From NCBI GenBank assembly GCA_902761735.1, contig CACWLL010000008.1, positions 1 to 64,000 on the forward strand: 64,000 nt of DNA. Reading direction: 5' to 3'. Positions within the stretch are counted from its first letter, which is position 1, and the number at the start of each line of letters is the position of its first letter. This DNA comes from an uncultured bacterium. Its GTDB lineage: Bacteria > Cyanobacteriota > Vampirovibrionia > Gastranaerophilales > Gastranaerophilaceae. Made by a program: the position numbers and the translations under genes. The notes beneath the pieces are model-generated. The model was not told the origin of the DNA. It worked only from the letters and a program-made list of their open reading frames with translations, and searched no databases. This document shows, in pieces, positions 19,086-25,260 of this stretch.

Positions 19086-20786
19086 TTAGGCAACTTGACC
19101 ATTTGTAGGATTTTTTTGAGCAAGAGCAACCGTTCGTTTATTATCTAAAACATTACCGACTTTTGCAAAACCTAAACCTGTAATTGCACCAAGAGCGAGT
19201 GATATTCCGCCGGAAATAAGTTTTGTAGTACAAATTATGGTTGTACCTATTGAACCTAAAATCGGGATTCCCGCAGTAAGCATTACAGATATTCTTTCAT
19301 CTTTGTCATGGGCATCTCCTAACCCATACGCTATCATTCCGCCTGATGCTAATAACGAAAGTACATCTGTCGGAGCAGAACCTAAAACCAAATCTCGCAC
19401 CTTATCAAAGAAATCGACGGTTTCTGTTTTCAAAGCTTTGTCAAAAGAACCGACAGCAGATTCGACATATTTTTCCGCTTTGGAATGGCTCAACGCATAC
19501 GCATCCAAAACTTTATATATTTCCATCATATCTTGAAGCTGTCCTGCATCACTATTTTTTACTAAATCACTAATTGATTTTATATATGATTCACGCATTT
19601 TGGTTTGGTTTTGTATAATACTTTCTTCTATGCCCTTTTCAAAAGGTCGATTTTTTAGTTGTAATAATTCTTTTAAAAAGTTTTCGCTATTAGCGGCAAG
19701 TCCTTCCGGATTTTCGGTAAACCATTCAAGTTTTTTTATAATTGATAAACCTTCCGCATCATTTGGCGGAATTATCTTTCTTAAATTCTTTATATATTGT
19801 GAAATAACATTCATTTTATCTTTTTCGGTATAAGCAATTTTATTTCTGACAGCAGCAACCTCATCTGTCAACGTCTTCTTATTACCTTGAATTTTGGCAT
19901 CAGGAATATAACTTGTCCACATTTCTTTGCGTAAAAACGGGTTGTCTTTTGTCCAATAGCCTTTTGTAAAAAAGCCTTTGAAAGAATTATCCCAGAAATA
20001 GTTATATAACTCATCCGTCGAATCTTTTATGTATTTATATCTGTTGTCCATTTCCTCCTGTGACATAAATTTTGTAACGGCATCTTTAATATCTTTTCTG
20101 CTTTTTTGAGCAATTTTCAGTAATTCACTTTTTGTATATTGTTGCCCTTTATAATTAACAATATCATCCGCGCCGTTTTTAAGAATAACTTCGTCCAGTT
20201 TATCAAACTCCTCAAACATTTTGTCGAATTTTTTACCTGCTTTTTGGTAGCTCTTTGATACGGTTTTTCTCGCAAGTTTTTCAAAATAATCCGATATTGC
20301 TTTATGCACTTTTGATGTTGGTTTTGTTTTATCCATTAAGTGTTTAAACTGAATATCTTTTAAAGATGTAAAATTGTTTATACTTTGTGTTGCTTCTTTG
20401 AAACTGTCAATCTTTCGTATTGAATATTCCCAAAAGCGCTGCATTTTTTCGGAACCTTTTGAATTTTCTGATTGTTTTTCAAAATACTTTTTCAATTTGT
20501 CCAAATACTTTTCCGTATTTTTTGGCAGCCCTCTCATTAAAACAAGTACACCGCCGCCAACAATAAGTGCAGAGGACCCGACCGCGTATGCAAGATTTCG
20601 TTTTCGATGAGTTTTCTTTTTGATTTGTTCATCGGGACTATTATTAATTGTTACCGTATCGGTATAGGGTTCCGTATTTTTTACAACACTATGCTCCTGC
20701 GGAATATAGTACTGTGCCATATTTTTTTCCGCAAGAGTAAACGTATTAAATATGTTTGTTTTTCCGTTTTGTACTTGTTCTACCAT
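19086..20786 (-). CDS. Unknown membrane protein with long coiled-coil region
   Basis: The protein has about 566 residues. A membrane span at about 65-86 (AYAVGSSALIVGGGVLVLM) is followed by about 370 Lys/Glu-rich residues that should be helical or coiled. Near the C-terminus lie two or three hydrophobic segments (VLSLLASGGMIAYGLG, AGIPILGSIGTTIIC, GGISLALGAITGLGF). The ATG at 20786 is chosen because AGGGAAA precedes it; the upstream TTG has no site. It follows the two paralogues and the AAA+ gene on the same strand, 95 bases away, so it may belong to the same unit. No known family is recognised. Confidence 0.75.
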   Translation of the reverse strand: MVEQVQNGKTNIFNTFTLAEKNMAQYYIPQEHSVVKNTEPYTDTVTINNSPDEQIKKKTHRKRNLAYAVGSSALIVGGGVLVLMRGLPKNTEKYLDKLKKYFEKQSENSKGSEKMQRFWEYSIRKIDSFKEATQSINNFTSLKDIQFKHLMDKTKPTSKVHKAISDYFEKLARKTVSKSYQKAGKKFDKMFEEFDKLDEVILKNGADDIVNYKGQQYTKSELLKIAQKSRKDIKDAVTKFMSQEEMDNRYKYIKDSTDELYNYFWDNSFKGFFTKGYWTKDNPFLRKEMWTSYIPDAKIQGNKKTLTDEVAAVRNKIAYTEKDKMNVISQYIKNLRKIIPPNDAEGLSIIKKLEWFTENPEGLAANSENFLKELLQLKNRPFEKGIEESIIQNQTKMRESYIKSISDLVKNSDAGQLQDMMEIYKVLDAYALSHSKAEKYVESAVGSFDKALKTETVDFFDKVRDLVLGSAPTDVLSLLASGGMIAYGLGDAHDKDERISVMLTAGIPILGSIGTTIICTTKLISGGISLALGAITGLGFAKVGNVLDNKRTVALAQKNPTNGQVA

Positions 20787-20880
20787 GGTTTCCCTACAAC
20801 TATATAAAAACATAACAAAAAGAATTTTTGCATGCTACAGAAAAGTTTCTTAAGTTATATGAATAAAATCTATTATATTT

Positions 20881-21900
20881 TTATTTGTTTTTAATTTTTA
20901 TTTGTAGCAATAATTCATTTACTGCATCGGAAATTTGGGGGTTTTCGCTATATTTACTATGTAATATGGCATTACAAACAAATTTTACTTTCTTATCTCC
21001 CTGTGCAAAGGTTTTAATCATGTTAATTGCCCTTAATACAGAATCCTCTTTAATATTATTGGGATTATTAGTATTTATAAAATTGGTTAAAGTTATTGCG
21101 ACAGAATGCGCATCATCATAATTATCTTTTTCTCCGATTTTTTCCATCAAATCAAGGTATTTTGAAAACAGCCTTTCTGTTTTATGATTTTTGGGTAATC
21201 TGGATAAATCTAATGACAAACTGAATATCGTACTGCCTATCCTTCCGGATTCGCTTTTAATACCGTATTGCTCAAACAACTCCAAAACATCTAATGCCGA
21301 AGCCTCATTAACATTTGTTTTAGGATAAACAAATTGATGCATATAATTGTGAATTTGAGCTTTTCTAAAACTTTCATCGGATGCAAAATTAGAGATATCT
21401 TTTTTAAAAACTACCGAATAATTTTTATGTCTTATTTGATTTTCTACGGAAACTAAAATGTCGGTAATTTCACGATATTTGTCTTTATCGTGTTTTGTCC
21501 ATTCATTTGCTAATCTTGCGGCATATGTGTTCTGTTGCTCTTGTAACTCCTCATAGTGTTTTACTAATTGTTCTCTGGTTGGTTCCGGAAAATATAAAGG
21601 TGTTTGCCTTTTGTAATTCGTATTGCTTTTTACCAAAATTTGTATATTTTGATTAGTTGTTTGTTCTATGGCTTGGCTTTTAAAAAGCTTTGCTATGGAT
21701 TTTCCTTTAATAATTCCCGCAACTAATACAATAACACCGGCTCCTGCTAATATTTTATTGCTTGTACTCGTACTGTTCCATTTTTCTTTTATTTGTTCCG
21801 ATTTTGTTTTTTGCGGCAGAGAATTTTTTGGCGATGTACTTTGAGTCGTCAATGTTAAAGGTAAATAAAATTTTGTATTATCTATACTTTTTATTTCCAT
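20881..21900 (-). CDS. Membrane-anchored paralogue, shared C-terminal domain
   Basis: This 339-residue protein has one membrane span at about 48-65 (NKILAGAGVIVLVAGIIKG). Residues about 112-335 form a domain that is clearly homologous to the C-terminal part of the adjacent 21902-23308 product. Shared phrases include DKYREIT, EASALD, GRIGSTIFS, NYDDAHSVA and SKYLDLME. The domain is helical in pattern, with conserved His in IHNYMHQFVYP. I know no named family for it. The stop-to-start gap with its upstream paralogue is one base, so translation is probably coupled. Confidence 0.8.
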   Translation of the reverse strand: MEIKSIDNTKFYLPLTLTTQSTSPKNSLPQKTKSEQIKEKWNSTSTSNKILAGAGVIVLVAGIIKGKSIAKLFKSQAIEQTTNQNIQILVKSNTNYKRQTPLYFPEPTREQLVKHYEELQEQQNTYAARLANEWTKHDKDKYREITDILVSVENQIRHKNYSVVFKKDISNFASDESFRKAQIHNYMHQFVYPKTNVNEASALDVLELFEQYGIKSESGRIGSTIFSLSLDLSRLPKNHKTERLFSKYLDLMEKIGEKDNYDDAHSVAITLTNFINTNNPNNIKEDSVLRAINMIKTFAQGDKKVKFVCNAILHSKYSENPQISDAVNELLLQIKIKNK

Positions 21901-21901
21901 G

Positions 21902-23308
21902 TTAACCTTCTCTGTTCTTCATCATTTTCAAAAATTCTTTCAAAGAGGAACTGATATCCGCATCATTACCATACTTACTTTTTGACAATGCATTATATAC
22001 AAATCGAACTTTTTTAATTCCTTGAGAAAAATCTTTTATCATGCGCATTGCACGTAAAATTGAATCCTTACTTATTTCATTTGGATTTTGCGATTTAATA
22101 AAATCGGTTAAAACAACAGCAACAGAATGCGCATCATCATAATTGCCGTTTTGTCCAAACTGTTCCATTACATCTAAATATTTTGAAAAAACCTTTTCTG
22201 TTTTGTGATGTTGAGGAAGCCTTGCCATATCCAATGCCATACTAAATATAGTACTTCCGATTCTGCCTTCTTCTTTTTTACCAAATTTTTTAAACATATC
22301 TAAGCCATCAAGAGCGGAGGCTTCGGTTTCTGTCATATTAGGAAAAACTTTGCCATGCATATAATGATGAATTTCTCTTTCTCTTAATATCGGATCTGTT
22401 GAAAAATCCGCCTCCGTTTTTTTAGGAACCAATGAGATATTATCTCTTACAATAATTTCTTCTAACTCTACTAATTTATCGGTAACTTCTCTATACTTAT
22501 CCTTGTCCGCTTGAGTCCAATTTTTTGCTAACCTGTCAGAATATACCGCTTGTTCGGCATTTAATTTTTCATAATCTGATACTATATTCATTTTCTCAAT
22601 ATCTTCCGGAGTAATTTCAGAATGATTTTTTACAATCGGAATATTTTCCCTTAATATTGCTTGGGCTCTTCTAATCATGTCTTCTTGATTTTCAGGGTTT
22701 TTACTAAAACTTACCTTATTAAAATATATCCCGTTTCCGTTAATGTAATCATCTGCTATAAGGCTCAATCTGTCGAGCATTTCTTTTACCAGAGAGGACT
22801 TTGCAACAGATAATCTGCCGCCGTGAAAAGCAGCATTTGCTTGAATTCTGGAAATACGATGTGCATTATTAGTTCTTAATGTTAGTTTTGTAAATATAGG
22901 ATATCCAAGGTATCTATTGATATAATTTCCAATTCCACCCGATGAACTAATCTCGTTTTTTGGTTTACTTATATAACTTCTTCTCTCAGCTTCAAGTTTA
23001 CGTATACTTTCTGCGGTATTTTTATTAAAAGAACCTTCGATATACTGTTCATAAAGACCTAAAAGTTTTGGATAAATATATTTTTTATAACTTATTTTCC
23101 CTTTTTCAAAAGGAGTTTTGGAAGGTGCTTCTTTAAGATTAAAAAGTTCATTTCTTATAATAGGAGCAAGTTCTGTTATCGTTTTATCCGAGTATAAACC
23201 TGAAAAAGATACGGTATCATCCGAAACTTTCCAACTTGTTCTTTTAGAGGCGGTCGGAATTAAATGTATAGTGTTTAAATTAAAACCGGTGACACTGTTT
23301 GTTTTCAT
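21902..23308 (-). CDS. Soluble paralogue with N-terminal Phe-Ser-Gly motif
   Basis: This 468-residue protein has VSFSG at residues 33-37, a central helical region of about 200 residues, and at about 244-465 the domain shared with the 20881-21900 product (REIHHYMHGKVFP, EASALDGLDMF, GRIGSTIFSMALD, NYDDAHSVAVVLTDF). No membrane segment is seen. It lies 8 bases downstream of the AAA+ ATPase gene. The conserved domain appears alpha-helical and might be a binding or repeat scaffold; function is unknown. Confidence 0.8.
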   Translation of the reverse strand: MKTNSVTGFNLNTIHLIPTASKRTSWKVSDDTVSFSGLYSDKTITELAPIIRNELFNLKEAPSKTPFEKGKISYKKYIYPKLLGLYEQYIEGSFNKNTAESIRKLEAERRSYISKPKNEISSSGGIGNYINRYLGYPIFTKLTLRTNNAHRISRIQANAAFHGGRLSVAKSSLVKEMLDRLSLIADDYINGNGIYFNKVSFSKNPENQEDMIRRAQAILRENIPIVKNHSEITPEDIEKMNIVSDYEKLNAEQAVYSDRLAKNWTQADKDKYREVTDKLVELEEIIVRDNISLVPKKTEADFSTDPILREREIHHYMHGKVFPNMTETEASALDGLDMFKKFGKKEEGRIGSTIFSMALDMARLPQHHKTEKVFSKYLDVMEQFGQNGNYDDAHSVAVVLTDFIKSQNPNEISKDSILRAMRMIKDFSQGIKKVRFVYNALSKSKYGNDADISSSLKEFLKMMKNREG

Positions 23309-23316
23309 TAAGGTTA

Positions 23317-25260
23317 TTAACCCTCACTGTCAATTAATTCAAAGATTTGTTGTAATTGCATATATTCATCCGCTTCATCTTCGTTATCCAACAAACCTCT
23401 GTTATATTTATCCTCAAGGGCTTCTAAACGAGGGCGTTTTACTTCAACAAAATTATCTATCATTGCCTGCTCGTCAGGGCTGATATTTTTGCCTGAAATT
23501 AATATATGCAGCAATTCTTCGTAACTGTCTGCATCATTTCCGTCAGGACGATGAGCTATTAAGTTCACGGATTTTTCAATTTGATTAAAATGTTTAAGCA
23601 TATCCGGACTGATTGCTCTTTTTGAATGAATCATTTCGTCCATAAAATATTTTAAATAATCTTCATTCGGGTTCTCAGCATATTTTCGAAGAGCACGTCT
23701 TGAAATATGTGCTATTTGGTCATTTGTATAAGCCCCGTGTCTTATATTCGGATTGAATATTTTAGCCATCTTCATAAAATCAGGAGATTCACAATCTATA
23801 TTCAATATTTGGTCAGCAACACTATTCTTAAACAGATACATTAATGTTGCCCTCCCCCTCGGAGTGAGTTCGTCAATATGATTTAGGCTTTCCCGTTGAA
23901 TTTCTTCTGTTTGAGAGCCCAATAATTTTATAAAGCTTAAAGTATCATTACTTTGGTTAAAATAATATTTTATTACATCAGCCAAATCACGGTTTTCCGC
24001 AGGTCCGACATGGAAAGCATGCACTTTTCCTTCTCTATACATCAAGTCATCATTAATCAAATGCGGATAATTAGTTGTTATAAAAATAGTTGTTGCAGAC
24101 CTATGCCTATCATTACCGTTAGGTTCTTGAGATAACACGTCAAAAATATGTTTGAATTGAGCAACATTTTCATTTGTTCCTCGCTCATTTATAACTTGAA
24201 GTCTTGCAAGTTCATCAGGGGTATAATTGTCTTTATGTTCCAATGCAGAATCAAGAGTTTTTGCAAAATATTCTTCTGCATCATCCATCAACAACACTGT
24301 TCTCTTACCTTCATTTTTATATCTTGTTTTTGCTTCTTCAAGATAATTATCAAAGGCTGTAATAAAATCTATATCTCCGTTTGGATTGTAGTAAAATCTG
24401 ACAGTTTCAACATTACCCTTTGCACTGTCTTCAATACATTTTAAGAATGTGGATTTTCCGGTACCGATTGCACCGTATAATAATACACAAGAAGGGATAT
24501 GTCCTTTATCATGATTTAGTTTTCCTATAAATTCGTTAATTTCCTGTTTAACATCATCATATCCGGCAATTTTTGTATTAATACCGTATTCACCGTTCAT
24601 ATATTCTTCAATCAGATTTGTTACTGCCGTATAATCAGCATATTTCGTTTTTGCGGCAATCAAATCATCAAGAGTTCTTATTCTTAAAGCTTTTTCTTCT
24701 CTGCTTTTTTCGGCATTTTCAATTATATTTTGATTTAATTCTTTTCTATCTTTGTATATAAGGTATTTATCTCTGCAACGGATATACTCACTGTCTTCAA
24801 AGACTTTGTTTCCTGCACGAACAGCATCTCTTGAAAACATTCTATCCCACCAATCTTGTTTACCTCTTACGGCATCATATTCATGTTCACGCGCATTTTC
24901 AGCATCTGTGTACAACTTATATCTGTTTTTTTCAAAGAAGTCACAAAGCTCTAATTCAGCCTTTGCCTGCTTAACCCTTTCTTCTTCGTTAACAATCATT
25001 AAAGCTTCTTTTTCCGCTTTCAGTCTGTTTATTTCTTGCAACAAAGCTTTTGTAGCTTCAGATTTAGATTTTTCATCATCAAAATTACCTGTAAAATTAA
25101 TATTTGGGCGAACTAAAAGATTTCTTAAAAGTTCGTATCCGGCCGGTTGATAATTACTAACCATACTGTTATCGGTATATGAGTTTTGAAAATTACGTTT
25201 TTTTTGAATGTCCGAATTATTTACGGTATATAATAAATTGCTAACAGATTGAATTTTCAT
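23317..25260 (-). CDS. AAA+ ATPase with coiled-coil N-terminus
   Basis: The protein has about 647 residues. The N-terminal part carries INFTG at 54-58, then a Glu/Lys-rich coiled-coil region at about 65-205. The ATPase module begins near IAGYDDVKQEI, with Walker A GAIGTGKST at about 263-271, Walker B VLLMDDAEE with Asp 326-327, a sensor-like TTIFITTNYP, and an arginine-containing TPRGRATL region. The C-terminal 150 residues are acidic. The ATG at 25260 has AAGGGG upstream. It heads a compact unit with the two paralogues (8 and 1 base gaps). It is likely a remodelling ATPase of unknown substrate. Confidence 0.85.
   Translation of the reverse strand: MKIQSVSNLLYTVNNSDIQKKRNFQNSYTDNSMVSNYQPAGYELLRNLLVRPNINFTGNFDDEKSKSEATKALLQEINRLKAEKEALMIVNEEERVKQAKAELELCDFFEKNRYKLYTDAENAREHEYDAVRGKQDWWDRMFSRDAVRAGNKVFEDSEYIRCRDKYLIYKDRKELNQNIIENAEKSREEKALRIRTLDDLIAAKTKYADYTAVTNLIEEYMNGEYGINTKIAGYDDVKQEINEFIGKLNHDKGHIPSCVLLYGAIGTGKSTFLKCIEDSAKGNVETVRFYYNPNGDIDFITAFDNYLEEAKTRYKNEGKRTVLLMDDAEEYFAKTLDSALEHKDNYTPDELARLQVINERGTNENVAQFKHIFDVLSQEPNGNDRHRSATTIFITTNYPHLINDDLMYREGKVHAFHVGPAENRDLADVIKYYFNQSNDTLSFIKLLGSQTEEIQRESLNHIDELTPRGRATLMYLFKNSVADQILNIDCESPDFMKMAKIFNPNIRHGAYTNDQIAHISRRALRKYAENPNEDYLKYFMDEMIHSKRAISPDMLKHFNQIEKSVNLIAHRPDGNDADSYEELLHILISGKNISPDEQAMIDNFVEVKRPRLEALEDKYNRGLLDNEDEADEYMQLQQIFELIDSEG

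Follow-up and report, generated by a model that had tools for sequence, protein, structure and literature searches.

A divergent AAA ATPase and two paralogues form an undescribed three-gene module within a mobile operon family of Gastranaerophilales

Do four closely spaced genes of a gut-dwelling relative of cyanobacteria constitute one undescribed system and, if only some of them do, what could these be for? The window (the whole stretch of DNA analysed here, 64,000 nucleotides) had been given a preliminary description in which an ATPase (B), two tandem paralogues (C and D) and a further membrane protein make up a four-gene system. All four open reading frames are present at 19086-25260, on the minus strand and in the places proposed (Table 1). 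The gaps of 8 and 1 bases claimed between the ATPase and the paralogues are likewise those measured: 8 nt between B and C, and 1 nt between C and D. D and the fourth gene lie 67 nt apart, or 94 nt when counted from the likely MVEQ start. The proposal stands for the ATPase with its soluble and membrane-anchored paralogues, and falls for the fourth gene: the three genes B-C-D make up a genuine module that has not been described before and that belongs to a more extensive mobile operon family. A literature search, mostly outside subscription journals, retrieved no paper describing such a system.

Table 1. Coordinates of the module genes, of the adjoining core gene and of two genes of the fuller operons.
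Feature	Position	Strand	Basis or remark
B, divergent classical AAA+ ATPase, 647 aa	23317-25260	-	Pfam AAA, Foldseek, motifs
C, soluble paralogue, 468 aa	21902-23308	-	FxG motif, variable N-terminal part, shared helical domain
D, membrane-anchored paralogue, 339 aa	20881-21900	-	one TM segment, then shared helical domain
Fourth gene, three-TM core membrane protein, not a module member	19086-20813	-	adjacent to dgt
Z1, opens the longer operon	L112:53-2737 and equivalents		AAA modules
A1, ~350 aa	L115:5547-6611 and equivalents		no Pfam match of weight

B had been taken for an AAA+ ATPase with a coiled-coil N-terminus, and both parts of this assignment are borne out. Its Walker A motif is intact (YGAIGTGKS in the window), with glycines and lysine that are invariant across 20 B proteins and conform to the P-loop pattern GxxGxGK[ST], and Pfam PF00004 (AAA) matches it with 27.4 bits (cut-off 21.2, E=5e-6). 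The AlphaFold model (mean pLDDT 77) predicts a disordered N-terminus that carries INFTG, a helical or coiled region (residues ~63-222), an AAA module (~230-590) and a C-terminal helical hairpin; p97, Vps4, FtsH and Msp1 came out on top when this model was submitted to Foldseek (E~1e-6; prob 1.00 for p97, Vps4 and FtsH). B is a divergent member of the classical AAA ATPases. Like p97/Cdc48, Vps4, Msp1 and FtsH, it has a Walker A motif, an intact sensor TTN and an AAA lid, and it shares with them the arginine in the DLxxR position: in the second region of homology, which in full has two Arg fingers (R-x-G-R), the first arginine is retained in most B proteins and the second is substituted (DLMYREGKV in the window). 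It differs from them in that identity is just ~13-15%, its N-terminal coiled-coil is unrelated and it has no protease domain. Moreover, the acidic pair of the Walker B-like motif (LLMDDAE in the window) is variable in the B family (DD, DE, NE or ND depending on the locus), unlike that of classical AAA ATPases. The UBA2855 orthologue of B is 88% identical to that of the window.

The domain of about 220 residues said to be common to C and D was recovered as an alignment of ~224 residues with 54% identity (E 1.6e-73), which begins at residue ~235-242 of C and ~105-112 of D. One paralogue is soluble and the other membrane-anchored, as proposed: D has one N-terminal TM segment (~46-66), retained by the majority of D proteins at related loci, and C has none. 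Residues 230-466 of C are predicted to be all-helical, with pLDDT values mostly about 80-96. That no named family covers this domain was also upheld, since searches of Pfam, NCBIfam, PADLOC, PDB sequences, PDB folds and BFVD folds gave no match of weight (none below 0.001 in BFVD). The best PDB fold matches, to 14-3-3, a designed nanocage and Kap114, had low TM-scores and E-values no better than 0.019, and were rejected as generic helical similarity.

The fourth gene, by contrast with its place in the preliminary description, does not belong with these three. Its relatives occur in 260 of the 286 genomes of the order, nearly all of which lack B-C-D, and in the same-genus genomes without B-C-D that were examined it lies directly before dgt in 8/8. 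Because it is so widespread and is kept beside dgt without the module, we place it outside the set: it is one of the order's core genes, and its position next to dgt is independent of the module. A four-gene complex could invoke the fact that the genes share a strand and lie close together both in the window and in UBA2855 (G223/L095), the two sites where the module adjoins the fourth gene, as well as the fact that no terminator was detected between D and this gene, but given the core distribution and the pairing with dgt it has almost no chance of being right and, as an obligate unit, it is already refuted. A real three-gene module is thereby separated from an unrelated core neighbour that mere adjacency would have joined to it. 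The fourth-gene family had no Pfam match above cut-off; a second paralogue of this gene is found at G000:C10:22957-24432.

Of the same 286 genomes, 16 carry full-length B (counted by score), 17 carry the C/D domain and 15 carry both (Fisher p=6e-22). The search method matters for these counts: a single-sequence search gave B relatives in 19 genomes, and C/D relatives were found in 5 genomes by single sequence and in 17 by profile. The exceptions to co-occurrence are a B gene at a contig end, a fragment in G170 and a degraded remnant in G202 that comprises a domain fragment and a truncated E (L136:8107-9360; E is introduced below). Across 289 genomes sampled from the whole class, all B matches fell within the window's own family, and a scan of named genomes yielded 23 loci, almost all in Candidatus Gastranaerophilales or Melainabacteria MAGs. 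Two module-bearing contigs are labelled Muribaculaceae (L096) and Clostridia (L099), maybe as a result of binning errors or of transfer. A viral origin of B was considered and rejected, none of the viral contigs scanned carrying B.

Conservation of gene order in Gastranaerophilales, which had been put forward as a check, was found: many genomes show the arrangement B-C-D(-E), and the fuller operons come in two subtypes. The longer one runs Z1-Z2-A1-B-C-D-E; in the other, A2 (~280 aa) is followed by B-C-D-E and preceded by two further conserved genes. Z1 (720-950 aa) contains up to three AAA modules, a degenerate N-terminal one and two classical ones, Z2 (~1000 aa) contains ankyrin repeats and often GLUG, and A1, whose FGxC...H motif is conserved and whose C-terminal tail is rich in His, is possibly metal-binding. 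E, shorter than its paralogue B, lacks Walker A and is therefore probably a pseudo-ATPase. The arrangement varies: D stands ahead of C in L112 and L114, and D has shrunk to a TM stub of ~100 aa in L101 and L103. A further variant (L066:2038-4772) carries three tandem domain copies (345, 282 and 261 aa; 98% and 77% identical) that precede two tandem shorter B-like ATPases. The window and UBA2855 sites have B-C-D alone; E, Z1, Z2 and A1 are absent from the window site, and a search for E or A1 across the rest of the window genome found neither.

Evidence of mobility comes from two genomes, G201 and G110, which belong to different species: identity between them is 85% in the topA region and 93% in the gyrA-type region. 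Their operons are ~99.8% identical over 7.6 kb, from Z1 to the middle of B. Divergence begins inside B, and C is ~77% identical in DNA and 67% in protein, which would fit either a recent operon transfer with later recombination inside B or an allele replacement on the C side. A tyrosine integrase adjoins the G110 operon. The operon is gained or lost patchily and moves between species, and B-C-D is a compact member of this mobile, fast-changing family, confined to one family of Gastranaerophilales.

The rate of change is unevenly distributed among the genes. Between the window and UBA2855, dN is 0.046 for dgt, 0.074 for the fourth gene, 0.067 for B and 0.22 for both C and D, i.e. about 3 times higher in C and D than in B and the neighbours; the dN contrast alone was used, dS being above 1.3 and near saturation. 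In the window lineage, dN/dS values of 0.04-0.16 for the three module genes indicate purifying selection, a pattern which supports these genes as encoding real proteins.

As to the genomic setting, several copies of the A2 type neighbour defence-type genes: those for SspD (L103), a DrmD-like helicase, GmrSD and a DUF4917/AbiH-like protein (L102), DUF5131 with a PDC-M30A-like partner (L106) and a zeta toxin (L101), and a BRO/PDC-S13 gene neighbours L115, in samples that are small and unblinded and with PADLOC candidate families that are broad. Most A1-type flanks gave nothing of this kind, loci of that type showing few such genes, and the counts of defence-type neighbours are small. Of ten control proteins from fourth-gene loci, only an Era-type GTPase matched, to Leo models, and this match was taken as spurious. 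The window copy itself sits between housekeeping genes, outside any defence island.

A second feature of the family is the relationship between the C and D domains. In a tree of the shared domain, C groups with the D of its own locus in 9/13 loci, and C-C and D-D orthology is kept in the window/UBA2855 and L107/L109 lineages. C-D identity inside the locus is 94-100% in eight of the nine loci, the ninth (L066) showing 78% between its outer copies, as compared to 23-56% for the best domain match in any other locus. At the DNA level, seven loci have C/D tracts that are 97.5-100% identical over 679-856 nt; these start abruptly at the domain, identity dropping to chance-like levels just upstream, and end between 12 nt before and 25 nt after the stop codon. 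Where a count was possible, the copies showed 0-9 synonymous differences in ~240 codons. The C and D domains of most relatives evolve in concert, homogenised at the DNA level, and the identical tracts are most directly read as the product of recent gene conversion or cassette replacement, since protein selection alone would not equalise synonymous sites. An assembly artefact was considered as the source of these tracts and is unlikely, because a few differences separate most of the copies, and related contigs break at the edge of the repeat. Indeed, the L110 contig ends at C residue 180, the L113 tract starting at residue 181, and the L108 (C residue 217) and L105 (D residue 134) contigs also end near the expected edge; L097, with its truncated C, departs from this pattern. 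The window pair, being 52-54% identical, has not been recently homogenised.

Two published cases resemble this situation. mtrA-1 and mtrA-2 are paralogues of one operon, one of which has its own TM domain, and their non-TM domain is homogenised by gene conversion (PMC4632066), as in C and D; unlike the module, they belong to a metabolic complex, the methyltransferase of methanogenesis, which has no ATPase and for which patchiness or mobility is not reported. In TLR1 and TLR6, also tandem paralogues, repeated gene conversion keeps one domain region identical while the remainder diverges, which the authors credit to shared binding partners (PMC2077338); unlike C and D, these are mammalian receptors, both membrane-bound, with no AAA ATPase. 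If our reading is right, the copying of a domain cassette between a soluble carrier and a membrane-bound one leaves a clear signature that can be searched for elsewhere.

What, then, might the module do? The account we favour, albeit tentatively and with a confidence that stays short of even, is that of a mobile recognition module, probably for defence or conflict, whose ATPase, B, would remodel C/D complexes at the membrane. The domain common to C and D would form a recognition surface that binds one common ligand, either a foreign (non-self) component or the domain itself, so both carriers would have to hold the same specificity. B would assemble or take apart C-D complexes at the membrane, in the fuller operons together with the pseudo-AAA protein E and the triple-AAA protein Z1, and would thereby set a threshold for a membrane-localised response. 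The role of B as remodeller of C-D complexes is the most likely one because B is an AAA remodeller by family, and the earlier suggestion that the ATPase acts on a membrane-bound partner may be kept in this form. Anti-phage defence or another biological conflict would be the most likely setting, which we favour because of the patchiness, the transfer, the rapid change and the neighbours. Against this account, none of the module genes codes for a nuclease, an enzyme producing a nucleotide signal or an effector of a known kind. PADLOC models matched B in partial AAA regions of DolB, mad8 and IetA alone (E 1e-5 to 3e-3; no full-length match), matched C partially with PD-T7-4 (E 3e-3) and did not match D. 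The window copy also speaks against the account, given its housekeeping surroundings, its missing E, Z1, Z2 and A1 and its unhomogenised pair, as do the low numbers of defence-type neighbours.

Among known conflict systems, the MoxR-vWA ternary systems, which are NTP-dependent and diversifying (Kaur et al. 2020, PMC7159879), likewise combine an AAA+ ATPase with variable partners, inactive NTPase components and, in some cases, TM segments. The module differs from them in that its AAA protein is of the classical clade and that no MoxR, vWA, beta-propeller or VMAP was found in the tested genes; in particular, MoxR and vWA were sought in B, C, D, Z2, A1, A2 and E with no match. Z1 of L105 gave one sub-threshold bpMoxR match. 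If the reading we favour is right, an uncultured gut lineage would have yielded a new type of recognition module, driven by an AAA protein.

The same observations could be accommodated by a non-defensive accessory membrane machine, a possibility we regard as rather unlikely. B would then, like Msp1, Vps4 or FtsH, extract or remodel complexes associated with the membrane, with D as its membrane receptor and C as a soluble adaptor; homogenisation would preserve the adaptor-receptor fit, and patchiness would reflect niche-specific gain and loss. The top Foldseek matches of B, the one conserved TM anchor of D and the mtrA-1/mtrA-2 parallel are consistent with such a machine, but presence in only 16/286 genomes, interspecies transfer and defence-gene and integrase neighbours are unusual for a housekeeping function.

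A bolder version of the recognition module, which we consider unlikely, is a mobile immune-like machine of an undescribed class, whose AAA motor works on a domain displayed both free and membrane-anchored. Gene conversion would keep both copies identical, new specificities would spread by interspecies recombination, and the cell would always hold a matched soluble sensor and membrane receptor; in the fuller operons, the motor would be joined by a pseudo-motor, a triple-AAA protein and an ankyrin protein.

A secreted or host-facing system, in which N-terminal FxG segments would be export or targeting tags and the operon would act on the gut host or on neighbouring cells, appears improbable. Two of the four genes had been said to carry a Phe-Gly motif, and FxG is indeed found only in B (INFTG) and C (VSFSG). 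In the fetched loci, [ILVMY]xFxG occurs within the first ~80 residues of 63/340 proteins, as compared to 6/340 control windows (~10-fold), and this enrichment, together with the ankyrin and GLUG repeats of Z2, would suit such a system. However, cytosolic-type AAA ATPases bear the motif too, as do proteins from all over the sampled loci; no gene of a known secretion system turned up, and the window site lacks Z2. FxG was accordingly discarded as a marker of the system, the motif being general at N-termini across the sampled loci, and appears to be a lineage-wide N-terminal feature.

Finally, a selfish mobile module of no benefit to its host, spread by recombination and with C/D identity as a by-product of repeat recombination, would agree with the remnant in G202, the interspecies transfer and the nearby integrase, but is decidedly improbable given that the conserved gene set has no transposase or integrase inside, that the open reading frames are complete in nearly all loci and that B, C and D are under purifying selection in the window lineage.
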